A DNA stretch of 46,097 nt from Gammaproteobacteria bacterium. GTDB lineage: Bacteria > Pseudomonadota > Gammaproteobacteria > SZUA-152. Location: NCBI GenBank assembly GCA_011051755.1, contig DRKN01000177.1, positions 1 through 46,097 on the forward strand, read 5' to 3'. The notes under the pieces were generated by a model that ran no database searches, was not told the DNA's origin, and saw only the letters and a program-made list of their open reading frames with translations. Made by a program: the position numbers and the translations under genes. Within the stretch, counting starts at the first letter, position 1. Each line of letters starts with the position of its first letter. Positions 6,026 through 45,012 of the stretch are shown piece by piece.

Positions 6026-6501
6026 AGAATCTCCCTCACAGAGACGTTATCGAAGAACGTCACGTTGCCCTCAGCCACCGCCGCTCCGTGCAGGTCAACA
6101 TTGACCGAATCAGCGCGAGCCGTGAACATGCCGGCCACCACGCCGGATTGCTTGTTGCCCTGGTCAAGCGTCAGCAGATGAGCATCCGTGGCGTCATTGA
6201 TTGACAACCTGCCCGCTACATTGTTGTACACCTCGCTGCAACGGGCATCGATGTGTCCTGTGACGAAATAGGTTTTCCCCGGCTCCACGGGAATGACCTG
6301 ACGTTGCAGAGATTGAGAGTTGACGGACGGCTCAATGCGCATCCTGCCGTTCTCCCATGTCGCTGAACCATGCTCATAGAAATCATCCCAGCCAGAAATG
6401 TCATCGGTGAACTCACCGTTCACCACCAACTCAGGCCCCAGCTTGAACGCCGACGCCACTGGAACACCCAGCATGTTTGAAATCGCGCACAGAATAGACA
6501 T
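6022..6501 (-). CDS. carbohydrate-binding-like tail accessory protein (copy 2)
   Basis: 159 residues. LGPELVVNGEFTDDISGWDD, then ATWENGRMRI, then VEPGKTYFVTG and a C-terminal FFDNVSVREIL match the jelly-roll pattern of carbohydrate-binding module 4/9-like domains. It is a paralogue of the gene immediately upstream (6501-7013), which shares PELV-NG-F, S-GW-DFY-HG, LQRQ and DNVS-RE-L. Tandem receptor-binding-type modules in the tail operon suggest binding to a surface polysaccharide. Confidence 0.8.
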   Translation of the reverse strand: MSILCAISNMLGVPVASAFKLGPELVVNGEFTDDISGWDDFYEHGSATWENGRMRIEPSVNSQSLQRQVIPVEPGKTYFVTGHIDARCSEVYNNVAGRLSINDATDAHLLTLDQGNKQSGVVAGMFTARADSVNVDLHGAAVAEGNVTFFDNVSVREIL

Positions 6502-7013
6502 TACAAAACCTCCCGCATAGATACGTTATCAATGAATGAATAGGAACCTGCATCACAGCCCGTTACGATGTCCAGATTCACGCTGGTTCCTGTTGCTGTA
6601 AATGTTCCGATGAATGTGCCTGATTCACCATTTCCTGCCTGTAGAATGAGAGAACCGTTACCTGTCACTGAGAGACGAGTTGCAACATTGTTATAACAGC
6701 TCGCATTCGTTGCATCTAAGTCGACGGATACTGCATACGTCTTACCTGCCTCTACAGACACGATTTGCCGCTGCAGTGTCTGTGAACCGCAGCCTTCTGG
6801 AAGACACGATAGACGCATCTTTCCTGCTTCCCATGACGCAGTTCCATGCCCATAGAAATCCGTCCACCCGCTCAGGTCGGTGTCAAACGTACCGTTTGTT
6901 ACCAGCTCAGGGCCGTATCCTCCGCCGCCAGCGCTTTCCGTTGGCATTGCCAGCGGGCTGCCAACCGCAGGGCCAATACCTGACATTACCGGCGTGTCCA
7001 TCACAAATCCCAC
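6501..7013 (-). CDS. carbohydrate-binding-like tail accessory protein (copy 1)
   Basis: 170 residues: a Gly-rich N-terminal 35 residues, then the same jelly-roll pattern as its downstream paralogue (GPELVTNGTFDTDLSGWTDF, ASWEAGKMRL, LQRQIVSVEAGKTYAV, FIDNVSMREVL). More AT-rich than its neighbours, so one copy may have been acquired separately. The start may be 7013 or the methionine four codons later. Its beginning overlaps the 99-aa gene by 13 bp. Likely a virion adhesin component. Confidence 0.8.
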   Translation of the reverse strand: MGFVMDTPVMSGIGPAVGSPLAMPTESAGGGGYGPELVTNGTFDTDLSGWTDFYGHGTASWEAGKMRLSCLPEGCGSQTLQRQIVSVEAGKTYAVSVDLDATNASCYNNVATRLSVTGNGSLILQAGNGESGTFIGTFTATGTSVNLDIVTGCDAGSYSFIDNVSMREVL

Positions 7014-7300
7014 CGGCGGGATGCGTACACGCCAACCGAGCCAGCCGTGGCCGCTTTGCTGAACGACAGGCGCATGGGGGAATAAACAGCAATGGTGGTG
7101 TCGGTGTCGGTGAACTCGACATTCGCGCCGTCTTTTGTCAGCGGCTGCCAGTTGGCTCCGCCGTCGATGGAAACATGAACGCCCACGGTCTCACCCGCAC
7201 CAAGTCCGGTACAGATTAGGGTCGTGGGTACTTTCTCCACCAGGTATTCATCATCACCGGCGGAAACCGCGTTGGTCGTGTCAAAGATTTTCAGCGCCAT
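7001..7300 (-). CDS. small phage structural protein, unknown
   Basis: 99 residues: MALKIFDTTNAVSAGDDEYL, VHVSIDGGANWQPLTKDGAN, ending VGVYASRRWDL. The SIDGGANWQ stretch is typical of beta-sandwich structural proteins of phages. Transcribed with the tail genes. No specific family recognised. Confidence 0.75.
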   Translation of the reverse strand: MALKIFDTTNAVSAGDDEYLVEKVPTTLICTGLGAGETVGVHVSIDGGANWQPLTKDGANVEFTDTDTTIAVYSPMRLSFSKAATAGSVGVYASRRWDL

Positions 7301-23001: not shown

Positions 23002-24848
23002 AGCGCCCAATCCTCCGATCCGAATCCAGAATCCTGTGACGGGTTGCTTACCGCCACCGGTTTTTGCGCCGATGTTTTCTTGCTTTTGCGCTGCCTCTCC
23101 AGCAGGGTGAAATCAGGGTTCCCAAGCCGCAGCGCCGCCAGGGAGTAAACCTTGCAGTCCAGCGCTTCGTTCCGCGCCCGGGTCTGCACCCACTCCTGGA
23201 ACGGTCGCCCGCCGCGCACCTTTGTGACCAGTTTCTCCGCCGCCAGCTGGGCGAAATACTCGTCGTCAAAAGCGGGGGTCCGCGAGAAATGGATGTACTG
23301 CGGGCCGGGTTCGATGATTTTCAGCCGCGCATAGAGCAGCGCCTTTCCCTGATCCACACCCAACGGCTCCACCGGGTTGCCTTTTTTGCGCCGCCGGCGC
23401 AGGCGCTGACGGCGGCGGCGTTCGTCCTCCACCAGCGGCCGCCCCATGCCGGTAACACCCTTCACCGGGATGGCCCAGCTCCGGTTTTCGCAGAATGAAT
23501 ACACCATGGAGGTGTTGTAGCCTGAGTCGATGCAGGCCAGATTGATGTGGTATTCACTCAGCTCATCTTCCAGGGCGTCCCACACGTCCTGCAGGGCGGT
23601 ATCGCCTGGAATGATGAGGTGGTCGATGGTCCAGTTTTCCTCTCCATGCGACCAGCCGTCGATGGTGACCTCCAGGCGGTCTTTCTGTACGTCAACCCCG
23701 GCGGTGACATAGAGCCAGGGGGCATTGTCTCCGTAGTCCTCAAGGCGCGTTATCAGCGCCATGTCATCGATGGTTTCGCCCTGCTCTTCCCAGGTTTCGC
23801 CAAGCGTGGTGTTAATGAAGCGCTTGAGGCTGGCGGTATCGCCCTGGGAGGCTTCCCATTGCTGCCATATTTCCCGCCAAGTGAAGCCCAGGCCAATGGG
23901 TGAGTACAGGCCATTGAGGTGGTAGCCGCGCACCTTGCGCTCTGGATGCCTGGCGATCCAGCGCCCCTTGGCAAGCATTTCAGGCTTGTGGTGCTCGTCG
24001 ATGCGGGCGCCGCATTCGCGGCAGGCGTAGAACACATCTCCCGTGGCCTTGACGTGTATCAGCCCGTAGCTGCCATCCGCATGCTTCCAGCGCAATACCT
24101 GGTATTCGCCACAATGGGGACAGGGCACATGGTATTCGCGCATGTCCGACTGGTTGTATTCCAGTTCGATGCGCGAGCCACCCTTGACCGTTGGCGTGGA
24201 AACCATGAGCAGCTTGCGCCGCGGGAATGCCTTGGTGCGCTCATCGATGAGGCCTATGGGGTCGCCTTCTTCACCCACTTCCCATGGAAACCGGTCAACC
24301 TCATCCAGCAGCACGTTTCGAATCGGCATGGAGGCCAGTGAGGCCGGGCTGTTCGCGCCGGAGATGACCATGAAGCCGCCCGGAAATTCCTTGATGTCTT
24401 CGGAATTGGCGGCGTCGCGGCTGGCGTAGGCATCGATGATTTCGGACAGGACCGGGGTTTCGCGCAGCAGGGGGTTGAGCCGCTGGCGCACCCAGCGCTT
24501 GCGCACCTCCAGCGTGGGCAGCACCACCAAAGTGGGCGCGGGGGCGTGTTCGGTGATGTAGCCTAGCCAATTCAGGCCCGCTTCGGTTTTCCCGATTTGG
24601 CTGGAAAACATCATCACCACCCGCTGCACCGGGCTGGTGACAGACAGGCAATCCATGATTTCCCGCAGGTATGGCGTGCGGGATGTCTTCCACCGGCCCG
24701 GCTCAGAGCTGCCCTTGCTGGAGAGGATGCGGTACTGGTCTGCCCAGTCAGACACCCTGGTGACAGGGCGCGGCCTGACGGATTGGGCCAGGCGCTGGTA
24801 CATCCAACCGATATCAGATTGCACAAATTCCATGTCAAAGCCAGCCAT
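22998..24848 (-). CDS. terminase large subunit, GpA family
   Basis: 616 residues from ATG 24848 (or ATG 24833). Motor and nuclease that cuts and packages phage DNA. The N-terminal half is the ATPase: SSQIGKTEAGLNWLG (Walker A variant) and NVLLDEVDRF (Walker B). The C-terminal half is the nuclease: VTAGVDVQKDRLEVTIDGW and NLACIDSGYNTSMVYSF. Family markers near the start are VSDWADQYRILSSKGSSEPG and YLREIMDCLS. A zinc-finger-like CPHCGEYQ and CRECGARID pair is present. Its start overlaps the end of the cysH-like gene by 14 bp, so it is translated behind the CRISPR-like genes. Confidence 0.96.
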   Translation of the reverse strand: MAGFDMEFVQSDIGWMYQRLAQSVRPRPVTRVSDWADQYRILSSKGSSEPGRWKTSRTPYLREIMDCLSVTSPVQRVVMMFSSQIGKTEAGLNWLGYITEHAPAPTLVVLPTLEVRKRWVRQRLNPLLRETPVLSEIIDAYASRDAANSEDIKEFPGGFMVISGANSPASLASMPIRNVLLDEVDRFPWEVGEEGDPIGLIDERTKAFPRRKLLMVSTPTVKGGSRIELEYNQSDMREYHVPCPHCGEYQVLRWKHADGSYGLIHVKATGDVFYACRECGARIDEHHKPEMLAKGRWIARHPERKVRGYHLNGLYSPIGLGFTWREIWQQWEASQGDTASLKRFINTTLGETWEEQGETIDDMALITRLEDYGDNAPWLYVTAGVDVQKDRLEVTIDGWSHGEENWTIDHLIIPGDTALQDVWDALEDELSEYHINLACIDSGYNTSMVYSFCENRSWAIPVKGVTGMGRPLVEDERRRRQRLRRRRKKGNPVEPLGVDQGKALLYARLKIIEPGPQYIHFSRTPAFDDEYFAQLAAEKLVTKVRGGRPFQEWVQTRARNEALDCKVYSLAALRLGNPDFTLLERQRKSKKTSAQKPVAVSNPSQDSGFGSEDWAL

Positions 24849-25560
24849 TGTGTTTCGCCAACCGCCAGGCATCTGGGTAGTGCTCGCGCAGGTACTCGAT
24901 GCGCCCGTGCTCCTCGCCTGAGCGACCAATGATGCCGTTGCGAGCCTGCGGGCCCATGCGGTCGTAGATGTCGAGCCAGGGCAGGCCACGGGTGACGATG
25001 TAGGCCCATACATCCCTGGTGGTCCATTTGGCGATGGGCAGATAGGCGCCGCCGCCGTCGGCGTAGTCGTAGGCCTGTCCGCGTTTGGCGATGAGCATGC
25101 GGCGGGGGCCGCTCTCCTCTGCGCGCAGGCCCATGACACGGTGGGTCAGGCCGTGGCGGTTGGCATAGTCGTAGATGGCGCAGAACATCTCATGGTGAAT
25201 GCCGCGCTGATAGGCCTCCACGCTGGCCTGGGTGCGGTCACCGCCCCACTTGTCCCACTCGAAGCGGTGGAAGTTCCAGCCTGCCCGGTCGATCCAGTTG
25301 AGCCACTTCTGCCTGTCGTCCTCGGTCCAGTGCGTTGGCACGCCAGGGTCGATCATGAGGATGGGGATGCCTGGGTGGATGCGGTGACAGAAGTCGGCGA
25401 TCACGGCGCTGTCCTTGCCGGCGGAGAATCCGACGTAGGTGCGGGCCGGGTCGATGGTCTCGATCAGGCGCTGGGTGTCGCGCAGTTTGCGCTGGTAGCC
25501 GGCGGTGGTGGCGTGGGCATGGAACCCGGCCAGTACGACGGGGCTCAGGCGAGTGGCCAT
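24835..25560 (-). CDS. CysH-like protein of a type IV-B CRISPR-type locus
   Basis: 241 residues, PAPS-reductase/ATP-pyrophosphatase superfamily. The PP-loop is SAGKDSAV (Ser46, Lys49, Asp50, Ser51); further markers are HRVMGLRAEESGPRRM and PIAKWTTRDVWAYIVTRGLP. CysH itself reduces PAPS in sulphate assimilation, but a related protein is the standard companion of type IV-B CRISPR loci, where its task is unknown. Here it follows csf1-cas11-csf2-csf3-cas6, overlapping cas6 by 16 bp, and precedes terL. A role in nucleotide or nucleic-acid modification is possible. The alternative, a DndC-like DNA sulphuration enzyme, is less likely since dnd partners are missing. Confidence 0.9.
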   Translation of the reverse strand: MATRLSPVVLAGFHAHATTAGYQRKLRDTQRLIETIDPARTYVGFSAGKDSAVIADFCHRIHPGIPILMIDPGVPTHWTEDDRQKWLNWIDRAGWNFHRFEWDKWGGDRTQASVEAYQRGIHHEMFCAIYDYANRHGLTHRVMGLRAEESGPRRMLIAKRGQAYDYADGGGAYLPIAKWTTRDVWAYIVTRGLPWLDIYDRMGPQARNGIIGRSGEEHGRIEYLREHYPDAWRLAKHNGWL

Positions 25561-26069
25561 GGCATGATCTCCGGCAGGTAGATGAGCCCGGCACCGAATG
25601 CTTTGTTGCGGCCGATGCCGAACTGCAGCAGGGTGGCGAAGCGGGCGCGGTCGTGGATTTCGATCACGCCGGTGGTCTGCACCAGCAGGCGGCGCATGCC
25701 GCTCTTCAGCCTGATCCAGTCGTCCTCGAACCGCACGAAGCGCAGGCTAGCGGCGTCGCCGAGCTGTCGCTTGAGCCAGTCGCGGCGCCCGAACCGGTCG
25801 GTGATGTCTTCCTTGCCGCTTTTGTAGCGGCGGCTGCTCTTCTGGATGACCAGGTCGGCGGCGAACGACAGTGGGCGGCCGGTCTCGATTCCGTCCAGCG
25901 TCAATGGCTTGGCGGGGTGGTGCGGCTTGATGACCGACAGCACCAGATAGTCCTCTGGGCTCATGCGGCGGAAAAGGAACTGCCGCTGCTCGCTGTCGAA
26001 CAGCTTGTGCAGGTGCTGGTGCACCTCATAGTCACTCACCCGCGGCAATTTGACGTGGCTCAGAAACAC
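25545..26069 (-). CDS. cas6: Cas6e-like CRISPR RNA endonuclease
   Basis: 174 residues from GTG 26069, which begins inside the last codons of csf3 (10-bp overlap). The N-terminus MFLSHVKLPRVSDYEVHQHL, then FLFRR, aligns by eye with E. coli Cas6e (MYLSKVIIA and LYQLHQGLWHLF); His17 falls on the catalytic His20 position. The C-terminus GIGRNKAFGAGLIYLPE matches the Cas6e glycine-rich loop GIGPGKAFGCGLL. Cas6 cuts precursor CRISPR RNA at repeats. Type IV-B loci typically lack any Cas6, so its presence beside cysH is notable. No array is in the window, so its substrate may be host-made repeats. Confidence 0.87.
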   Translation of the reverse strand: MFLSHVKLPRVSDYEVHQHLHKLFDSEQRQFLFRRMSPEDYLVLSVIKPHHPAKPLTLDGIETGRPLSFAADLVIQKSSRRYKSGKEDITDRFGRRDWLKRQLGDAASLRFVRFEDDWIRLKSGMRRLLVQTTGVIEIHDRARFATLLQFGIGRNKAFGAGLIYLPEIMPWPLA

Positions 26070-26698
26070 GGCAGGCCCTCCACGCAGTCCTCCCACCAGG
26101 GCGAGTACCAGTAGGGCGGCACCCAGGGGCGCAGCGGCTTGGCCTGTCCCTCGATGAGGCCGGCGCGGGCTGGCACGTTGCGTCGTGCGGCGATCCATTC
26201 CGGCTCCAGGTCCGCCTCCTCTGCGCGCCAGTCATGCACCGCGCCGTAGCCTGCGGCGCCGTTGGGGCCGATGGCGCGCACGTCGTTGAGCAGCATCAGG
26301 ATGTCATCCGGGTCGGCTCCGTCGCCCAAGATCAGGCCGGCCTGCCATTCGCGTGCTGACAGGGTGCGGATGGGCCGGCGGCGCTCCTTGAACTGGCCGG
26401 CGGCGGTGTTGATTTTCATCCGCTTGCCGAGGTTGGCGCGGTCGGCGGGATAGCGCTTATGCAGGTACTCGCGCCCCTCCAGCGGCTCGCCGACGGGGTA
26501 GATGTCGGTGCCGGCCCAGAGTGGTTTGCCATCCTCGTCGCGCCAGATGGCGTGCAGTGGCACGGGCACCACCACGGGGCCGTCCTGCAGCGAGGGCAGG
26601 TCCTGGTGGCCAGCGCTGGCCCAGGCGATGAGTGACGCGATGTTAATGCGCGCGCCGGTGCTGACCACAGGTGTGGTGACTGTAGCGGTGACGATCAT
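26060..26698 (-). CDS. csf3: Csf3, type IV Cas5-like subunit
   Basis: 212 residues from ATG 26698 (ATGA overlap with csf2). Holds the 5' handle of the guide RNA in type IV effector complexes. Recognised by GKRMKINTAAGQFKE, RRRPIRTLSAREWQAGL, and the Gly-rich loop AIGPNGAAGYGAV (about 142-154), all characteristic of Csf3. Length is normal for the family. It is the third subunit in the order csf1-cas11-csf2-csf3. Confidence 0.92.
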   Translation of the reverse strand: MIVTATVTTPVVSTGARINIASLIAWASAGHQDLPSLQDGPVVVPVPLHAIWRDEDGKPLWAGTDIYPVGEPLEGREYLHKRYPADRANLGKRMKINTAAGQFKERRRPIRTLSAREWQAGLILGDGADPDDILMLLNDVRAIGPNGAAGYGAVHDWRAEEADLEPEWIAARRNVPARAGLIEGQAKPLRPWVPPYWYSPWWEDCVEGLPCF

Positions 26699-27546
26699 GC
26701 CGCGCACAGCACCTTCTCCGTGCCGAGCGTGCCGTTGGTCAGGCCCTCGCGCATGGCTTCGTAGTGCGCATCGATATGGTCTTCATAGGCCTCCGATAAA
26801 TCGACAATCGTGCAGTCCATACGGACAATCTCAACGCGGCCTCTGCCTTGCCGTGCCTGGCCACCGATGTAACGGTCCCAGTTCTCAAGGGCGACGCCGA
26901 TGCAGCCTCGTGTAGATTCTGGGGTGAGATTGTCAAACGTCAGTTCGATATGGATCTTCGCCCCGGCGGCCAGCGTCTCGTAGGTGTAGAGCATTTGGTT
27001 GCCGTCGGAGTCGGTGCCGGTGCCGCGGGTGCGCGTCTCTTCCTCAAGGAGATCAAACGCACTCACGCTGCGGGCCTCGTCCTCCAGGTGCGGGGCCACC
27101 AGCGCCAGGGTATCGGCGTACTCGCGGGCCACCAGCCAGGCGGCCAGGCGCAGGCGCGAGCGCGGCAAGATGAAGCCGTCCACGGCGCCGCCGAGCAGGT
27201 CCAGGCTGGGGTAGAGCAGGCGGATCTTGTGGCCCAGCTCGATGTCGTTGGTGGGCGCTTTGGCGCCGGCCTTCATCTGGCCGCCGGAGTAGAGCAGGTT
27301 GACGACGCTCTGCGGCATGTCGCCTGGGTGCAGGTCGAGCTCATCCACCAGATGGTCGGCCAGTGGGATGCGAAACAGGGTGGCGCGCAAGGCGTTCTCG
27401 CTAATCGCAGGCACACGCGCCGGGATGCCGTTGACCAGCATGGCCTGCCGCATGAACAGCCGGGTGTTGGTCTGGTTGTCGATGCCAGTCACGGTGTCGC
27501 CGTGGGCTATGGGAGTCATGGTTTGCAAGGTGATGGCGTATTTCAC
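26695..27546 (-). CDS. csf2: Csf2, type IV Cas7-like backbone subunit
   Basis: 283 residues from GTG 27546, which overlaps the stop of the cas11-like gene (GTGA). Cas7 subunits polymerise along the guide RNA. Features: MKYAITLQTMTPIAHGDTVT, NTRLFMRQAMLVNGIPARVP, NALRATLFRIPLADHL, DLLGGAVDGFILPRSRLRLA, and the late GCIGVALENWDRYIGGQARQG RGRVEI pattern of Gly-rich Cas7 proteins. Somewhat shorter than plasmid Csf2 (about 330). A longer upstream reading frame is the overlap with the gene before and not used. Confidence 0.9.
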   Translation of the reverse strand: MKYAITLQTMTPIAHGDTVTGIDNQTNTRLFMRQAMLVNGIPARVPAISENALRATLFRIPLADHLVDELDLHPGDMPQSVVNLLYSGGQMKAGAKAPTNDIELGHKIRLLYPSLDLLGGAVDGFILPRSRLRLAAWLVAREYADTLALVAPHLEDEARSVSAFDLLEEETRTRGTGTDSDGNQMLYTYETLAAGAKIHIELTFDNLTPESTRGCIGVALENWDRYIGGQARQGRGRVEIVRMDCTIVDLSEAYEDHIDAHYEAMREGLTNGTLGTEKVLCAA

Positions 27547-27959
27547 AGGATACCCTCCAGTGTGTCGTCGAAATCGGTGGTGTCTGTGGCCGTCTCGGCG
27601 CGCTTGGGCTTCTGCGCGCTGTGCAGCATGCGGGCGATGGTGACGATGCTCACCGCATCGGTGGCCAGGGTGCGCAGCACCTGCGGCTGGTCGTCGGCCT
27701 GGAACAGCTCGGCGATGCGGCTGTCGTACTGGCGCGGCGGCACAGGCCAGCGCATCTTGCGCAGCAGTGCGGCCCAGAACTCCGGGATATTGCGCGCCTG
27801 CACGGCGCACAGTTCCACGCGCCCGGCCAACACCTGGTAGCGGGTCATGCCGGTGAACAGGCCGGTGCCGTCCACCGAGTTAAAACAGTCCAAGCTGAGC
27901 TGGATCAGCCTCACCGCGGTCTGCTGGGGTGGTGTCAGTGTGTCGAGCAGGTTTTGCAT
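27543..27959 (-). CDS. Cas11-like small subunit
   Basis: 138 residues from ATG 27959; a GTG two codons upstream (27965) is closer to the GAGGAG ribosome binding site and also possible. Mostly helical: LTPPQQTAVRLIQLSLDCFN, RNIPEFWAALLRKMRWPVPP, VLRTLATDAVSIVTIARMLH. Not similar to a family by motif, but size, helical nature and position between csf1 and csf2 are those of the small subunit reported for type IV-B loci. Overlaps csf1 by 80 bp in another frame and csf2 by 4 bp. Confidence 0.8.
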   Translation of the reverse strand: MQNLLDTLTPPQQTAVRLIQLSLDCFNSVDGTGLFTGMTRYQVLAGRVELCAVQARNIPEFWAALLRKMRWPVPPRQYDSRIAELFQADDQPQVLRTLATDAVSIVTIARMLHSAQKPKRAETATDTTDFDDTLEGIL

Positions 27960-28683
27960 GAGCACGTTTCTCCTCTTTGGTAACGCCGGCAATGAGCAGG
28001 GCCGGCAGGAATTCGGGGCGGTTGCGGAGCCTGGCCAGGGTCGATTCCAGGCGCAGGGTTTCCGCCGGGTCGCGGCTGGCGCGCTTGTAGTCGTTGAACA
28101 GCGAGTGATAAGCGGCGCTCTTGGCGTAGCCGGCGCGCAGGATGGGTAATAGCTCGTCAATGGCGCGCAGTAGGTCCACCAGGTCGAAATGCCGCCACTC
28201 GCTCACGTCGTAGTCCGGCGCGTGCACGTAGAGCCCGAAATCGCCAATGGTCGCGATCTGGCAGCGGTGCCAAAGACGGATTTTCACGTCTGTGGTGAGA
28301 ACGCCGGTGATAGGTGTCTCCGGTGGCAGTTGTGGCAGATCGCGGACGATATGCAGCCATGGGCGCTTGTCCTGCACCACGGACTCAACAGAGATCACCG
28401 CCAGCTCAAAGCCCGTCGGCTCACTGGCGATGAAATTGCCGGGCCGTCCCTTGCCGATCTCCATTAGCCAGGCGCAGGGGATGCAGAAGTGCGTCGCCTG
28501 TCGGAACCTGAACAGTTGCGAGTCGCCCACGGTGGTGCTCTTGATGATGCGTTTCGCCGGCACGGCCTCACCATCGATCTCGGTGCCGCAGATCATGCAG
28601 CGGCCGGAAGCAGTCTCTGTCTGGTGCTTTTGCCCAGGCAACCCCGCGGACTGCCAAATCATGGCTTGAGCCGCGACCGTCAT
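27880..28683 (-). CDS. csf1: Csf1, type IV large-subunit (Cas8-like) protein with zinc finger
   Basis: 267 residues. Signature protein of type IV CRISPR systems. A four-cysteine zinc site, C29-M-I-C32 and C67-I-P-C70, with HFCIPCAWLMEIGKGRPGN around the second pair, is typical of Csf1. C-terminal basic tail (EEKRAHAKPARHTDTTP). Start ATG 28683 overlaps the terS stop (ATGA), so the whole set is translationally coupled to a packaging gene and would be expressed late in the lytic cycle unless there is an internal promoter, which I do not see. Confidence 0.9.
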   Translation of the reverse strand: MTVAAQAMIWQSAGLPGQKHQTETASGRCMICGTEIDGEAVPAKRIIKSTTVGDSQLFRFRQATHFCIPCAWLMEIGKGRPGNFIASEPTGFELAVISVESVVQDKRPWLHIVRDLPQLPPETPITGVLTTDVKIRLWHRCQIATIGDFGLYVHAPDYDVSEWRHFDLVDLLRAIDELLPILRAGYAKSAAYHSLFNDYKRASRDPAETLRLESTLARLRNRPEFLPALLIAGVTKEEKRAHAKPARHTDTTPADRGEADPAQLGLF

Positions 28684-39131: not shown

Positions 39132-39229
39132 TGACGACAGCAACAATCATCGCCCTGGCCCTCATCGTGGCCATGGCATTCGGCAAATTCTGCGCCGTCG
39201 GGCGCGGCAACAACAAACGGGATCAATAA
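39131..39229 (+). CDS. 32-residue membrane peptide
   Basis: [20 protein letters not shown], then [12 protein letters not shown]. One hydrophobic helix. The start overlaps the previous stop and the stop overlaps the ssb start (TAATG), which supports translation. Unknown. Confidence 0.6.
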
Positions 39230-39825
39230 TGGCAAGAGGCATAAACAAGGTCATACTCATTGGCAACCTGGGCAAAGACCCGGAGACCCGCTACATGCCC
39301 AGCGGCAACGCGGTGACAAACATCACCATGGCCACATCGGACACCTGGAAGGACAAGCAGACCGGTGAACAGCAGGAACGCACCGAGTGGCACCGGGTGG
39401 TGTTTTTCAACCGCCTGGCGGAAATCGCCGGGGAATACCTGAAAAAGGGCGCCAAGGTCTATATCGAGAGCAGCCTTCGCACCCGCAAACTGGCGGCACT
39501 GCGCCAAGTAACCACACCAGGCCCATGGGTGCTGTTCGCTGTTGATAATGGCTGGCACATAAATCAACAAGGCGGCCATGGGTTCGTCGGAACCATGCCA
39601 ATCTATTTGCATCGTTCCGAGCAATGTTATGCCAATGCGCAGCTGGTGGCCGCCGCCCCAGAAATGGCCGCCCTGCTGGAGCAGCTGGCCGACCGCCTGG
39701 CGGTATTCGAGGAATGGGCGAGGGACATGTGCTCAACCTACTGCGAGCACCTCTCCGACGAAATTATCCATACACCGAATTGCCCGGCGGCTGATCTCGG
39801 CATCGACCAGGAGGGCGCATCGTGA
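39229..39825 (+). CDS. ssb: chimeric SSB: N-terminal OB-fold part fused to an unrelated tail
   Basis: 198 residues. Residues 1-86 are canonical single-stranded DNA-binding protein ([56 protein letters not shown]). Normal SSB continues with WQDKDG and the last OB strands, but here the sequence switches at RTRK-LAAL to [20 protein letters not shown] and [20 protein letters not shown], a pattern found at the end of other phage proteins. The final OB strands and the acidic tip are missing. A deletion joining two genes is the simple explanation; ssDNA binding may be impaired. In the same place phages usually carry further recombination genes. Confidence 0.85.
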
Positions 39826-39962
39826 TAATCGGCATCGACTACGACGGGACCATCACGACCGATCCAGCGCTCTGGTATGCACTGATCGACAGCGCAAAAA
39901 AGTGCGGGCACACAGTGATTGTCGTCACCGGCCGCCCAGGCAATCGCATCGGTGATGGGTGA
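39822..39962 (+). pseudogene. truncated HAD-like gene
   Basis: From GTG 39822 (GTGA overlap with the ssb fusion): [20 protein letters not shown], then KKCGHTVIVVTGRPGNRIGD, then stop: 46 residues. The intact cassette-borne paralogue at 41206 has 89 residues with the same IGIDYDGTIT and VVVVTGR motifs and then FCGDEYKRRAAER. The end is lost; right after it a 41-residue frame (39955-40080, MGETLLLAWSGQTF) runs into the next gene and looks like the tail of a foreign gene. This marks a deletion junction at the left edge of the cassette region. Confidence 0.75.
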
Positions 39963-40076: not shown

Positions 40077-40343
40077 ATGAGTAAAAAAACAATCTATTAC
40101 AGAGTAATTGACGACTGCGAGGACAGCTACTACGAATTGAAAACAAGCTGGGATATTGACGAAGACCCTGATTATATCGCACAAGAGGCTGCCGATGATT
40201 ATTACTCAAGCCATGACGGATGGGAATCAGATTGGCCATTAACTATTGCTCTGCATGAGCATGAAGATGGGCCAGAAAAAACGCGGATGATTGTTGACAT
40301 GGAAGCGCTGCCGAATTTTACGGCTAGGCATATTGAAACATAA
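40077..40343 (+). CDS. unknown acidic protein, first cassette-type gene
   Basis: 88 residues from ATG 40077 (overlaps the preceding frame by 4 bp). MSKKTIYYRVIDDCEDSYYE, YIAQEAADDYYSSHDGWESD, EHEDGPEKTRMIVDMEALP. Very acidic, lower GC than the prophage backbone. Its stop codon is the start of the attC-type site 1. Unknown. Confidence 0.75.
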   Translation: MSKKTIYYRVIDDCEDSYYELKTSWDIDEDPDYIAQEAADDYYSSHDGWESDWPLTIALHEHEDGPEKTRMIVDMEALPNFTARHIET

Positions 40344-40470
40344 CGGCAAAGCTCACCTGCCGCCGGGGTGGTGGCACGAAAGGAGGAGAAACCTATGACT
40401 GAGAACGAAGCCAATAAAGTAAGCACTACCGCCGACGCCCCGGCGGTCAGTGTGCAGCGCATTGTTAGCC
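40338..40470 (+). repeat. attC-type recombination site 1
   Basis: Outer boxes ACATAAC (40338-40344) and GTTAGCC (40464-40470). The inner arms pair: CACCTGCCGCCGGGG near 40353-40367 with CCCCGGCGGTCAGTG near 40437-40451. About 130 bp, within the range of Vibrio-type attC. The site contains a strong ribosome binding site and ATG (40395) and an open frame that runs through the right box into the next cassette. Confidence 0.68.
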
Positions 40471-40883
40471 CTAAAATAGACAAGGCTTGTTGCAACTGTT
40501 TTTATTTTGACAGGAAACGTGATGTTTGTTCAGTCCCTGCTGAACCATCAATGGGTGATGACGGAAAATGTCGTTGGTGGAGGTTAGAATATCATGGCAT
40601 CCGTGAAGTTGAAGTATTGGATGGCAGAATGAAATTGGTAATCGTTCCGGGGGTTGGAGCAATCACAGCGGACATAGATGAGGTGTTGGAGTTCACTGAG
40701 CTGGGTGAGATAACCCTACGCGAACAAGATGATGATTATATACGCAGGAATAGTGTTACTGGGAGATATGTTGGGGCCACAAGAGCAGAGCTTGAGAAAC
40801 ATTTGTTTTCATTGGGGTGGCGGCAATGGAAACATGACAAATCAATTTGGTTAAGTCCGTCACATAAGTGTTTTGAAGGCTAA
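40395..40883 (+). CDS. cassette gene with cysteine-rich centre; start inside attC
   Basis: 162 residues from ATG 40395 (AGGAGGAGAA before it). The first 25 residues (MTENEANKVSTTADAP) are encoded by the attC-type site. From 30 on: DKACCNCFYFDRKRDVC, DDGKCRWWRLEYHGIREVEV, a Cys4 or Cys5 metal site, then mixed alpha/beta and FSLGWRQWKHDKSIW at the end. Unrecognised family. It begins in one attC and ends in the next (GGCTAAC at 40878). Confidence 0.75.
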   Translation: MTENEANKVSTTADAPAVSVQRIVSPKIDKACCNCFYFDRKRDVCSVPAEPSMGDDGKCRWWRLEYHGIREVEVLDGRMKLVIVPGVGAITADIDEVLEFTELGEITLREQDDDYIRRNSVTGRYVGATRAELEKHLFSLGWRQWKHDKSIWLSPSHKCFEG

Positions 40884-40942
40884 CGACATAATTAACCAGC
40901 CGCGCATTTTTTGCGCGGTCTGAGTTAAATGACTTGTTATAA
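40878..40942 (+). repeat. attC-type recombination site 2
   Basis: 65 bp. Outer boxes GGCTAAC (40878-40884) and GTTATAA (40936-40942). Inner arms TTAAC, CCGCGCA and TGCGCGG, GTTAA fold with a TTTTT apex; an unpaired CAG/TCTGA step lies between, as extrahelical bases do in attC sites. Confidence 0.82.
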
Positions 40943-40954
40943 GGAATTTTATCG

Positions 40955-41143
40955 ATGAAAAAGATGAAGATGGAGCCGCCAAATAAATGCCTGCTTTGGC
41001 ACAGATGGCAACTCGTGAAAGATACAGGTGCTACGCAATACCACCAGTGCAAAGACTGTGGAGCGCGTTTTGCTCGTTCAACATGTAACGGATACCAGCC
41101 GATTAATTACCGATGGGTATCGGGGCTTGTCGATTCCTTATAA
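40955..41143 (+). CDS. small zinc-finger cassette protein
   Basis: 62 residues from ATG 40955. PPNKCLLWHRWQLVKDTGAT then QYHQCKDCGARFARSTCN: three or four Cys that can bind zinc. Stop overlaps the left box of attC 3. Such 'CKDCGARF' mini-proteins are common in phage and cassette DNA; function unknown. Confidence 0.75.
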   Translation: MKKMKMEPPNKCLLWHRWQLVKDTGATQYHQCKDCGARFARSTCNGYQPINYRWVSGLVDSL

Positions 41144-41197
41144 CGATTGAAGTGTGCGGCGCGAGGTACGAGCGTCCACACGACTTGCTTGTTATAT
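41138..41197 (+). repeat. attC-type recombination site 3
   Basis: 60 bp. TTATAAC (41138-41144) and GTTATAT (41191-41197) as outer boxes; inner arms AAGTGTG and CACACGACTT, extended by GCGGCGC/GCGTC. This is the standard size of short attC sites. Confidence 0.85.
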
Positions 41198-41205
41198 GGT
41201 GATGC

Positions 41206-41475
41206 ATGGATATTGGAATTGACTATGACGGAACAATTACAGCAGACCCGGTTTTCTGGTTTGGGTTTATTACTCACGCTGTCAAGTGTGGTCATGGTGT
41301 TGTTGTTGTCACCGGAAGAAAAGAAGATGAACGCCCGCCTGTAGGAAATCTCCCCATTGTTTTCTGTGGAGATGAGTACAAGCGGCGGGCAGCAGAAAGA
41401 GCGGGATATGAAATAGATATTTGGATTGATAATGAGCCTGGGCACATTGAGCCATCTCGAAAACTGGAATGGTAA
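41206..41475 (+). CDS. HAD-like phosphatase family cassette protein
   Basis: 89 residues from ATG 41206, 9 bp after attC 3. IGIDYDGTITADPVFWFGFI is HAD motif I (Asp5, Asp7), VVVVTGRKEDE motif II, and IDIWIDNEPGHIEP motif III/IV-like. Small HAD proteins of this sort occur in many phages; polynucleotide or nucleotide phosphatase activity is possible. Intact relative of the truncated gene at 39822. Confidence 0.82.
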   Translation: MDIGIDYDGTITADPVFWFGFITHAVKCGHGVVVVTGRKEDERPPVGNLPIVFCGDEYKRRAAERAGYEIDIWIDNEPGHIEPSRKLEW

Positions 41476-41488
41476 AAGGCAAAACCAA

Positions 41489-41950
41489 ATGAATGAAGAT
41501 ATTAGAGATGAAGGCTATAAGGCATTTATTGACGCAGTAGTTAAAAGTCTTGATGCATCGAGGCATTCGCTTGTTTGCTCAATAGAACATGCGTTAAAAA
41601 CCACGCCCTGCCCATATAACGTGGGGACAGAGGAATACAATGATTGGATGGAAGGATTCAATCCAAGCAGACAAAAACGCAGTATGAGAAAAGTTGTTTG
41701 TGCAGCGTGTAGAAATAGAAAAACTGGCGACATTATCGCTGGCGTTCGTCATTGGGACGAGATCATGAGAGCGCAAGTCGGGGATGATGTCGATGGAGCG
41801 GAATGGGAACAAGGATTTCTGGATAATAAACGCCGTTTTATGACAAGGACAGAAGCTTGGGGCGTTGCAGAGAGAGCGCACCAGATCATTCACCGATGCG
41901 GGGGCGACACAACAAATGGCGGAACGCTTTACTCTGAGAACCTTTACTAG
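41489..41950 (+). CDS. early phage protein with C-terminal 'GTLYSENLY' motif
   Basis: 153 residues from ATG 41489. Last part VVCAACRNRKTGDIIAGVRH, WEQGFLDNKRRFMTRTEAWG, VAERAHQII, GGTLYSENLY is a widespread conserved phage protein pattern of unknown function. It shares a cassette with the HAD-like gene. The R-box ATATAAC follows the stop at 41953, but no matching right half is found before the next gene, so that attC is either decayed or lost. Confidence 0.8.
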   Translation: MNEDIRDEGYKAFIDAVVKSLDASRHSLVCSIEHALKTTPCPYNVGTEEYNDWMEGFNPSRQKRSMRKVVCAACRNRKTGDIIAGVRHWDEIMRAQVGDDVDGAEWEQGFLDNKRRFMTRTEAWGVAERAHQIIHRCGGDTTNGGTLYSENLY

Positions 41951-41973
41951 CCATATAACACCGAGATAAAGCG

Positions 41974-42225
41974 ATGAAAGTTAATATTGAAAATGGCATC
42001 TTCCACGCTGTAATAACCGAAAACGATCATGTTGAGAAGTGCCCGTTTTGCGGAAGCGACGATATCATCGTACAGAACACATGGACGGCCTCGTATTGGG
42101 TCGAATGCAGCGATTGCGGTGCAGAAATGCACACGCAATCAAGTGGCGACCACGACAACAAGGATCACCACCTGCGCGAAGCGATGGCGGCCATAGATGC
42201 GTGGAATGTTCGCGCCAAACGATAG
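41974..42225 (+). CDS. Lar-like restriction-alleviation protein
   Basis: 83 residues. KCPFCGSDDIIVQNTWTASY, WVECSDCGAEMHTQSSG and a final REAMAAIDAWNVRAKR match the Lar family, whose Rac-prophage member lowers EcoK restriction. Four Cys form a zinc site (CPFC, CSDC). Protects incoming phage DNA from type I restriction, if it works like Lar. Followed by attC 5. Confidence 0.85.
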   Translation: MKVNIENGIFHAVITENDHVEKCPFCGSDDIIVQNTWTASYWVECSDCGAEMHTQSSGDHDNKDHHLREAMAAIDAWNVRAKR

Positions 42226-42236
42226 CGGTAGATGCC

Positions 42237-42356
42237 GTATAACGATTTAGCTAACCGGCGTTTGCACTGAACTGGAGAATACGATGACCGACGAACAGAA
42301 CGCAGAAACCAGCAGCCGCGAGGACGCGAAGCGTCCGGTTGAGCGGCTTGTTATGG
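42237..42356 (+). repeat. attC-type recombination site 4
   Basis: 120 bp. GTATAAC (42237-42243) and GTTATGG (42350-42356). Inner arms TTAGCTAACCGG and CCGGTTGAGCGG pair, further helped by GCCGCGAGGAC/GCGTCC inside. Like site 1 it is long and has a ribosome binding site (TGGAG) and an ATG (42284) inside it, with an open frame through the right box. Confidence 0.78.
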
Positions 42357-42544
42357 CGATACCACGTGAACGTGCTGCTAGGTTTGTTGAGCAGCAACTT
42401 GGATGGGGAACTAATGCCAGCAAGAACAGCCCAGGCGCGCATTATGGAGCGCAGGAGCTTCGAGAGCTTCTAGATTATATTTACGGCGGCGAACCAAAGA
42501 CTACAGCTGAAAAAATCAGCATCGAAGGCAAAGGGTGGCATTAG
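42284..42544 (+). CDS. cassette gene starting inside attC, small phage-type protein
   Basis: 86 residues from ATG 42284; alternative start ATG 42353 (63 residues) at the right box. The attC-encoded part begins MTDEQNAETSS, much like the MTENEANKVSTT of the gene at 40395. The cassette part FVEQQLGWGTNASKNSPGAH YGAQELRELLDYIYGGEPKT resembles short phage proteins with 'LRELLDYIYGG'. Unknown. Confidence 0.75.
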   Translation: MTDEQNAETSSREDAKRPVERLVMAIPRERAARFVEQQLGWGTNASKNSPGAHYGAQELRELLDYIYGGEPKTTAEKISIEGKGWH

Positions 42545-42546
42545 CG

Positions 42547-42606
42547 CCATAACGATCAACATCAGCGGCACAGCGTAGCGGAGTCCGCTGGATGAGCTTG
42601 TTATGT
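42547..42606 (+). repeat. attC-type recombination site 5
   Basis: 60 bp. CCATAAC (42547-42553) and GTTATGT (42600-42606); inner arms CATCAGCGG and CCGCTGGATG with one unpaired base, apex GCACAGCGTAGCGGAG. Classical short attC. Confidence 0.87.
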
Positions 42607-42631: not shown

Positions 42632-42931
42632 ATGAAACCCAAAGAATTTGTGCGCCTGGACATGGAATCGCTGCGGAATATGGCAATGACAGCCGACCAT
42701 GACATAACCGAACAGTCCGCTGATGATAGGTTGGTGGCGTACGCAGCTATTGCGATGAAGGAAAAACTGAGAGTCGCCAGACTAAAAGGGCGTGGCGGCT
42801 GGTGGAATCCTGACGAGTGCAACATTGAACAGTTGCGCCACATGCTGCAAGAACATCTTGAGAAGGGCGATGTGGTGGACGTGATGAATTTTGCAGCAAT
42901 GATCTATGCGCGTGAGTGCGCAGACACATAA
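42632..42931 (+). CDS. phage-type cassette protein (RGRGGW family)
   Basis: 99 residues from ATG 42632 with GAGAGG 11 bp ahead. SADDRLVAYAAIAMKEKLRV, RLKGRGGWWNPDECNIEQLR, HMLQEHLEKGDVVDVMNFAA MIY. This pattern is well known from enterobacterial and other temperate phage early regions, function unknown. Its stop is inside the left box of attC 6. Confidence 0.8.
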   Translation: MKPKEFVRLDMESLRNMAMTADHDITEQSADDRLVAYAAIAMKEKLRVARLKGRGGWWNPDECNIEQLRHMLQEHLEKGDVVDVMNFAAMIYARECADT

Positions 42932-43015
42932 CGCTTCGCGTAACCGGCGGCTAAAAGCATTGCGAGCGATAGCGAACGATGCTTTTAGCCGTCCGAGTTG
43001 ACGCGATTGTTATAT
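42926..43015 (+). repeat. attC-type recombination site 6
   Basis: 90 bp, the best site of the array. ACATAAC (42926-42932) and GTTATAT (43009-43015); long paired arms CGGCGGCTAAAAGCAT (about 42946-42961) and ATGCTTTTAGCCGTCCG (about 42979-42995), flanked by GCGTAAC/GTTGACGC. Length and extrahelical steps fit attC. Confidence 0.9.
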
Positions 43016-43506: not shown

Positions 43507-43754
43507 TGACCGAAATCGAACAACTACTGAAACTCATACAGCCGCAGATCCCGATCACCGTTGATCTGTGGTCTGTCCGTGAAATCGCGGCCTATCTCAA
43601 ACGAAACCCCAACAACGTGCGGGACCGGGTAACGAAACTACCAGGCTTCCCCACCCCGATCCGCCTGCCAACAGAATCAGGCAAGCGAGGACAGCCATTG
43701 TGGAAAGCCAAGGAAGTGATCGCCTGGGCGGAAAAACACCGTGACGCCGCCTAA
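43506..43754 (+). CDS. putative excisionase/AlpA-like DNA-binding protein
   Basis: 82 residues: LWSVREIAAYLKRNPNNVRD RVTKLPGF, PIRLPTESGKRGQPLWKAKE VIAWAE. Winged helix-turn-helix of the AlpA/MerR-Xis type: 'W....IA.YL......V...V...GFP.P', 'W...EV..W'. It ends 4 bp into the convergent integrase gene. Most likely directs excision. Confidence 0.8.
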   Translation: MTEIEQLLKLIQPQIPITVDLWSVREIAAYLKRNPNNVRDRVTKLPGFPTPIRLPTESGKRGQPLWKAKEVIAWAEKHRDAA

Positions 43755-44737
43755 TCCAGTCGATCCGCAAGCTCATCGATGGTCGGGTTGTAATACACCT
43801 GGCTGAGGATCTTCAGATCACGAATCCCCAGCATTCGCGCCAGCTCCATCACCCCGAGCTTTTTCGACAACCGCGTGGCCGCCTCATGACGCGAATCATG
43901 AAAGTGCAAATCAACGATCCCCGCCCGGTCCCGCATCTTGCGGAACAACGCATCAATACTCTGCCTCGTCAACCCGAACACATCCGGCGGATCCGTCGCC
44001 TCCATCACATGATCCAACAACGCCCGGGCCCTGGAAGATAGCGGCACATCCCGTGCGGAGCCATTTTTCGTCATCGGCAAATGCACATGCCGCTCATGCA
44101 CATCACAACGCCGCAGCCCGGCGATCTCCCCGCACCGCATCCCCGTCTCGATGGCAAACAAGAACGCGGCAATGACCCGCTGCTGCCGTTCAACCGGCGG
44201 CACATCATCCGAATACCCGGACGCGATCCGCAACGCTTCGATTTCATCCTCTGCCGGCCGCCTGTGCCGCGGCGGTGACGCCTTCGGACGCGACACCAGG
44301 GACACTGGCGACTCACGCAACCAGCCCCACTCCCGCGCCGCCACGCGGCACGCATGAGACAAGATGTTCATCTCCCGGCATACCGTTGATCCGCTGACCT
44401 CGCGCAACCGCGCATCCCGCCAGGCGGCGATATGCCGCGGCGCCAGCTCACGCAGAGACAAATCAGCCAGCGCCTTGTTACCCAGGAACCGGTTGATGAA
44501 CTTCTGTTCACGCGCCGCGCCTCGCTTGGTTGGCGTCACCTCCATCGAATACCGGCGCAACAGATCACCGAACGTCTTGTTCGGTATCTTCCCGGCAATG
44601 GCATCCTCCAGCTCGATTTCAGTTTCACGCGCCCAGGCAACGGCAGCCGCCTTGGTGGCAAACGTCTTTGACTTCCGTCTGCCGCCCACCTTGACCTGAA
44701 CCTGCCAACGATCCCCTCGCTTGCGAATACTCGCCAT
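43751..44737 (-). CDS. int: tyrosine-recombinase phage integrase
   Basis: 328 residues. N-terminal arm-binding SIRKRGDRWQVQVKVGGRRK SKTF, core-binding 60-150, catalytic domain with Arg201 (ETGMRCGEIAGL), Lys224, H280-D-S-R283-H284 and a nucleophile Tyr in QVYYNPT (315 or 316). It faces attR, less than 200 bp away. It lacks the extra patch expected of integron integrases, so it is a phage enzyme and not the one that builds cassette arrays. Confidence 0.95.
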   Translation of the reverse strand: MASIRKRGDRWQVQVKVGGRRKSKTFATKAAAVAWARETEIELEDAIAGKIPNKTFGDLLRRYSMEVTPTKRGAAREQKFINRFLGNKALADLSLRELAPRHIAAWRDARLREVSGSTVCREMNILSHACRVAAREWGWLRESPVSLVSRPKASPPRHRRPAEDEIEALRIASGYSDDVPPVERQQRVIAAFLFAIETGMRCGEIAGLRRCDVHERHVHLPMTKNGSARDVPLSSRARALLDHVMEATDPPDVFGLTRQSIDALFRKMRDRAGIVDLHFHDSRHEAATRLSKKLGVMELARMLGIRDLKILSQVYYNPTIDELADRLD

Positions 44738-44925: not shown

Positions 44926-44941
44926 TGGTGCCCAGGGCCGG
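44926..44941. repeat. attR core (tRNA-Leu 3' end)
   Basis: TGGTGCCCAGGGCCGG, identical to 1730-1745. It lies in the acceptor stem and T arm of the tRNA gene, including the CCA, so integration leaves an intact tRNA gene at this end. Confidence 0.9.
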
Positions 44942-45012
44942 GGTCGAACCGGCACGGTGTTGCCACCGAGGGATTTTAAGTCCCTTGCGTCTACCAATTT
45001 CGCCACCTGGGC
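44926..45012 (-). tRNA. tRNA-Leu (anticodon UAA)
   Basis: 87 nt with encoded CCA. Acceptor GCCCAGG pairs with CCTGGGC; D arm has TTGGTAGACGC; anticodon arm AGGGACT-TAA-AATCCCT; a long variable arm (CTCGGTGGCAACACC) as in class II tRNAs; T arm GTGCCGGTTCGACCCCGGC. The anticodon TAA reads UUA. Target gene of the prophage. Confidence 0.95.

Follow-up and report, generated by a model that had tools for sequence, protein, structure and literature searches.

The fusion of cassette genes by read-through, integrons in phages and ORF-11, a short open reading frame (ORF), are already known, and synthetic attC recombination sites have reportedly been written by Nivina and colleagues so that they code for a peptide as well. 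Such synthetic sites resemble those reported here in that the attC also codes for a peptide, but they are laboratory-designed rather than natural start-bearing sites. Here, we describe two attC sites, S1 and S4, in a prophage of a gammaproteobacterial draft genome (GCA_011051755.1; contig DRKN01000177.1, positions 1 to 46,097, the whole stretch analyzed and hereafter called the window) that would supply a ribosome binding site, a start codon and an N-terminal leader peptide to the cassette inserted behind them.

Integrons and clusters of attC sites lacking integron integrases (CALINs) have been reported in bacteriophage genomes, five of the six phage attC sites tested recombining with attI1 (Qi et al. 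2023, PMC9892861). Like the arrays described here, those phage integrons have attC arrays with or without an integron integrase and carry methyltransferase and other cassettes. However, the terms ribosome, start codon, translation and leader are absent from the main text of that paper, and the attC sites of its phage TJE1, of 50 to 60 bp, were leaderless by the finder used in the present analysis. ORF-11, ORF-17 and ORF-18 of attI1 and a short ORF in the IMP-8 attC are, for their part, cases of a recombination site with a Shine-Dalgarno sequence (SD) and an ATG that aid translation of the next cassette (PMC8876359); these frames terminate at the junction or close to it and exert their effect through coupling or re-initiation, whereas here the frame continues and the cassette body can be start-less. 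Experimental proof that a ribosome reads through an attC in frame into the next cassette, giving a fusion protein, comes from GCUF1-OXA-28, whose expression was lowered by insertion of a stop (PMC3375312). The start of that fusion lies in the upstream cassette gene and the second gene has its own ribosome binding site and ATG, unlike the present sites, in which the start is inside the attC and which form a recurring class; the read-through shown for it nevertheless makes the key mechanical step feasible. No start-codon-bearing attC feeding start-less cassettes was found in the available text of the open-licence PMC papers searched (bioRxiv lying outside this set), including PMC9892861, PMC8876359, PMC4670013 and PMC3375312.

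The window contains six attC-like sites in tandem (Table 1), among which only S1 and S4 have a short stem carrying a large loop. A preliminary description had stated that both are longer than the rest and carry a ribosome binding site and an ATG, and that their leaders run without a stop through the right box into the next cassette gene; both statements were borne out. The leaders, of 22 to 23 codons, are stop-free through R' into the following cassette, giving total ORFs of 162 codons (S1) and 86 codons (S4). It had also held that the two leaders begin alike, which stands as a likeness of composition, the identity between S1 and S4 being below 66%. The R''/R' boxes (ACATAAC/GTTAGCC in S1, with 4 of 7 positions paired, and GTATAAC/GTTATGG in S4, with 5 of 7) are weaker than the consensus RYYYAAC/GTTRRRY, with the TAAC...GTT core present, and the L''/L' stem shows 12 of 13 positions paired plus two bulges in both sites. 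Judged by this architecture, S1 and S4 are genuine attC sites.

The finder takes account of three features, namely the complementarity of R'' and R', an L''/L' stem containing two bulges, and the core letters, with a score threshold of 16. All six window sites scored between 17.75 and 18.75, and six shuffles of 72.5 kb gave no match at 17 or above. A covariance model built from the site arms (R1) recovered the four sites of 60 to 90 bp with 57 to 62 bits and did not recover the long-loop S1 and S4, its length limit being probably responsible; a second model (R2), whose training set includes S1 and S4, recognized both (Table 1). These sites belong to the training data of both models, which leaves the shuffle control as the independent evidence. 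The arrangement is not that of a fused cassette, in which the attC between two cassettes is lost, as the attC is intact in both cases; nor is it of the ORF-11 type, with a short ORF ending at the junction before the gene's own start, as the frames are open into the body.

With a high degree of confidence, S1 and S4 can be read as leader-bearing attC sites, in which the loop would code for the ribosome binding site, the start and some 20 to 29 codons of polar peptide running through the right arm and R', start-less bodies being read as N-terminal fusions if the frame matches. A cassette would insert between the G and the TT of R'; the ribosome would initiate in the attC of the preceding cassette and read directly into the new one; and a start-less body would be made, given a matching frame, as a fusion whose tag serves as a permissive N-terminus. 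The leaders are probably translated, and the advantage would presumably be the expression of captured genes without translation signals of their own.

The preliminary description had suggested looking for homologous leader-bearing sites in other cassette arrays, and such sites were encountered repeatedly. Two pattern scans of viral_contigs that required an ATG returned 27 stretches, mostly leader-bearing. These patterns bear on the explanation that an ATG and an open frame arise accidentally in long A-rich loops, since they themselves required the ATG; moreover, the same pattern in bacterial genomes retrieved many attC sites without an SD or an open frame, and MT(D/E) protein beginnings are common. 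Because an ATG-requiring search is biased, the scan for long-loop attC sites was repeated without a start codon in the pattern, yielding 48 stretches that the finder reduced to 36 distinct attC sites (the other 12 were duplicates or scored below 13). An SD of at least 4 nt followed by ATG or GTG was present in the loop of 26 of these 36 sites, and in 23 of the 26 the frame was open for at least 60 nt past R' (or as far as the available sequence reached, if shorter), compared to 2 of 52 for the +1 and +2 frames from the same starts (p 2e-14).

A curated table contains 54 leader sites, which form 34 clusters at 66% site identity and come from 24 loci in 22 records, two of the records containing two loci each. 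Two of its sites, from locus L206, have ORFs that end 57 and 29 nt past R'. Lc (15.75) and L245 (score 0) went undetected by the finder but were leader sites by eye, the latter being outside the 54. Throughout the table the ATG lies 35 to 64 nt into the site and the leaders are polar peptides of 20 to 29 codons. The off-frames contain 94 and 122 stops, each being stop-free in just 5 of the 54 sites; together with the start-free scan and the start-less bodies described below, this makes an accidental origin extremely improbable.

Phage record G392 carries seven leader sites and a full integron integrase (316.8 bits; cut-off, 265), along with phage capsid, baseplate J, minor tail and protease genes, and a 3.5-kb contig of a relative with terminase-like genes by reading (L076) holds three sites of the S1/S4 build. 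On the sequences compared, the leader-bearing attC is a recurrent class in phages, not an oddity. In G392 (loci L203/L223), the integron is complete, with intI at 6154-7131 adjoining the leader-attC array, which includes cytosine and adenine methylase genes. A type IV Cas7-like protein of 435 aa (PADLOC, E 3e-42) is encoded as a leader-fused cassette in phage record G409 (L216, 6426-7730, minus strand).

That integrons in general carry leader sites was considered and rejected: in 45 loci of the own genome and its relatives, window included, 7 of 112 sites had an SD of at least 4 nt with an ATG open for at least 90 nt past R'. Of the seven, the window and L076 account for two each; the others are in L059 and L062, where the ATG is near R', and in L084, a palindromic site. 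A search for the class with R2 under stricter filters matched 6 of 369 genomes, an SD-led leader being seen, among the sites read, only in G000; locus L108 showed a site resembling S4 but devoid of an ATG. The ATG-requiring pattern retrieved 26 stretches from genome_contigs, with the leader form by reading in L180, L184 and L190, of which L190 equals L076 in length and site and L180 equals a viral record already counted. L180 (QIKG01000197.1), binned as an Oceanospirillales metagenome-assembled genome, matches IMG/VR record 3300003886_000046 in length and leader site, and some of the leader arrays assigned to bacterial bins may thus lie on contigs of viruses.

Related leaders were found in front of different genes. 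The site of L184, from a Gammaproteobacteria contig, is 83% identical to S4 without gaps, and yet the genes that follow differ (body alignment score of 31, compared to 210 for the one pair with truly related bodies). Similarly, bodies were unrelated behind sites L203 2895 and 3989 (93% identity), L204 7802 and L212 1865 (83%), and L213 5685, L213 6123 and L214 7162 (75 to 78%). It could be argued that the leaders are the 5' ends of original phage genes, split off by the formation of the attC and never exchanged. In the tabulated set, leader and body are always in frame, as they were selected to be, and the phase of a body need not match that of its own downstream attC (L220 4557/5049 and L076). 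Nevertheless, at least four site families join related leaders to unrelated bodies, and a split without exchange is very unlikely.

The leader peptides are consistently polar, with a 72% share of EDKRNQSTGP residues versus 56% in the bodies, and an 18% share of the order-promoting VILMFYWC versus 35%. This composition would suit a leader that is functional in itself, through targeting, partner binding or anti-host activity, with the attC as tag donor. However, no motif shared across the 34 clusters was seen, and no purifying selection on the leader amino acids was found in eight pairs of related sites, in which 26 changed codons were nonsynonymous and 7 synonymous. A leader with its own role is thus quite unlikely, and nothing in the sequences indicates a specific function of the tag.

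As to the bodies, no homologue of either window body was found in viral_contigs or among the phage records, and for that after S1 the window itself was the sole match in the 57 genomes searched. Since native starts could not be compared for these two, bodies from other arrays were used instead. In L213 5685, the match to phrog_625 sets in on the last R' residue, with position 2 of the 98 in the profile, and the annotated start of its homologue in Planktothrix phage PaV-LD aligns with query residue 22, the second R' residue, which follows the R' valine. The bodies of L129 (a C5-methylase) and L131 3899 (an N6/N4-methylase) have no start codon of any kind from R' to the beginning of the domain, and the first start codon of the L221 methylase is a TTG situated 7 residues inside the domain. 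In contrast with the L221 and L131 methyltransferases, which follow a leader attC and lack an ATG of their own, homologous methyltransferase cassettes behind short attC sites have one: L211 4417 carries its own SD (AGGA) and an ATG about 30 nt after R' (the R'' of its attC is degenerate and was missed by the finder), and L205 carries an ATG 17 nt after R'. In the window, all the genes downstream of the short sites S2, S3 and S5 likewise have their own ATG after R'.

In general, an SD-ATG within 60 nt after R' was present, in the same frame, at 9 of 37 leader sites, compared to 48 of 76 other attC sites (p 1.3e-4; three of an initial 79 had too little sequence downstream and were excluded). Most simply, bodies behind leader sites would often have lost, or never had, a start of their own. 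Those 9 bodies, together with an in-frame ATG within the R' of S4, would fit a different role for the loop ORF, namely that it merely carries ribosomes through the hairpin, with re-initiation at the cassette's own start, as proposed for ORF-11 of attI1 and the ORF of the IMP-8 attC, where such coupling has been described (PMC8876359). Re-initiation needs a stop and a second start, which are missing here: the frame continues into the body in 23 of the 26 SD-start loops of the start-free scan, and the bodies of L129, L131 3899, L213 and S1 lack a start before the conserved domain or near the beginning of the body. We therefore regard re-initiation as unlikely. Given the recurrent open frames led by an SD and a start, the related leaders on unrelated bodies and the start-less bodies, the attC most likely supplies both initiation and an N-terminal tag.

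The preliminary description had gone further, proposing that such a site would feed whatever is inserted downstream. The SD, the start and the N-terminus would indeed be supplied, and related leaders do precede unrelated bodies; the claim is too broad as regards the frame. The GTT of R' was in phase 0 in 31 of the 54 sites, in phase 1 in 10 and in phase 2 in 13, and with one site per cluster phase 0 accounted for 21 of 34 (p 6e-4). One family of related sites contains all three phases, each open into its own body, and two such sites in record G401 differ in a homopolymer and in phase, both ORFs ending soon after R'. As three phases occur, the leaders are not frame-universal, and only phase-matched bodies would be read. 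Somewhat better than evenly supported, in our judgment, is the wider proposal of a split-gene integron in phages, in which the translation start and a disposable N-terminus belong to the site, and start-less bodies stay silent unless they lie in phase behind a leader attC. Shuffling would then amount to N-terminal exchange combined with a three-way frame lottery, the phase being switched by small indels in the loop.

Several observations weigh against the proposal that S1, S4 and their relatives supply initiation and a tag. Although the arms of S1 and S4 pair, the whole single strands fold no better than shuffles (z of -0.88 and -0.04, respectively), unlike those of S2 and S6. The ATG inside the R' of S4 and the in-frame SD-ATG of the 9 bodies point the same way, as do the lack of homologues for the window bodies and the lack of purifying selection, the substitutions in the leaders being evenly distributed among codon positions (11, 12 and 16; p 0.58). 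Pairing of the SD and start regions in the transcript was not reduced relative to shuffled loops (0.63 versus 0.62; p 0.53). In addition, free exchange would break the frame in many cases. No blastn match was obtained for S4 in phages and plasmids or for the leader site L207 6629 in phages.

The coordinates of the array and of the neighboring integration functions are collected in Table 1.

Table 1. Features of the attC array and adjacent elements in the window
Feature	Position	Strand	Description
attC S1, 133 bp	40338..40470	+	long loop with SD, ATG and leader; R'' 40338-40344, R' 40464-40470; finder 17.75; R2 106.5 bits (training sequence); arms pair
Shine-Dalgarno AAGGAGG of S1	40380..40386	+	8 nt before ATG at 40395
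S1 leader MTENEANKVSTTADAPAVSVQRI	40395..40463	+	would be coded by attC loop and right arm
Cassette 2 body, start-less	40464..40883	+	phase-0 fusion (predicted); earliest in-frame start of any kind 29 codons past R'; no homologue found (searches given in the text)
Short attC S2	40878..40942	+	R1 and finder; next gene (40955) with own ATG
Short attC S3	41138..41197	+	R1 and finder; next gene (41206) with own ATG
attC S4, 120 bp	42237..42356	+	long loop with SD, ATG and leader; R' 42350-42356; finder 18.25; R2 92.5 bits (training sequence); 83% identity ungapped to L184 1130-1249
Shine-Dalgarno GGAG of S4	42274..42277	+	6 nt before ATG at 42284
S4 leader MTDEQNAETSSREDAKRPVERL	42284..42349	+	ORF reading
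Body after S4	42350..42544	+	phase-0 fusion (predicted); alternative ATG at 42353-42355, with no SD of at least 4 nt
Short attC S5	42547..42606	+	R1 and finder; next gene (42632) with own ATG
attC S6	42926..43015	+	hairpin without leader; end of array; R1 and finder
Tyrosine integrase of prophage	43751..44737	-	phage-type; PF00589; not counted as intI
tRNA-Leu (taa)	44926..45012	-	adjoins integrase; probable prophage attachment site

Contig C177, one of the 207 in the draft genome, makes up the window, and the prophage within it has a GpA-type terminase gene as well as DUF2303 and ssb genes to the left of the array, which is placed between a truncated ssb and the integrase. No TIGR02249 match over the curated cut-off was obtained in this draft genome, so that intI does not adjoin the array. 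Since six attC sites lie in tandem on the same strand within 2.7 kb without intI, the array is a CALIN in a prophage. In the host family, IntI over the cut-off was found in 16 of 24 genomes and attC matches by R1 in 18 of 24, so the family often has IntI; the sites would presumably be recombined by a host IntI, none having been found in the window prophage.

Other features of the same genome were recorded. The ssb at 39229-39962 is truncated and continues into unrelated downstream sequence, and 39822-39962 is a truncated copy resembling the cassette gene at 41206-41475, HAD-like by our own reading. The cassette gene at 41974-42225 encodes a Lar-type restriction alleviation protein (PF14354, E 6e-14). 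The prophage also carries type IV CRISPR-matching genes (24835-28683, minus strand), with matches to Cas5/Csf3 (26060-26707, E 4e-24), Cas7/Csf2 (26695-27810, E 2e-34) and Cas8/Csf1 (27880-28683, E 9e-8), all on the minus strand and adjoined by a PAPS-reductase/CysH-like gene; the Cas7-like protein of L216 is 31% identical to that of the window. On contig C48 of the same genome (L013), a near-identical stretch of about 65 nt at 1-66 and 493-556 flanks material after an attC at the contig end.

About 20% of cassettes lack translation signals of their own (PMC8876359). The expression of such cassettes, or of those deep in an array, is a standing puzzle that a start-bearing site would solve. It would also change what a cassette gene is, since the mature protein would differ with array order, and gene finders that seek a start after R' will truncate such proteins. 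Finally, these sites hint at a natural model on which coding attC sites could be based, and at a way to test directly whether integrons diversify proteins in phages.

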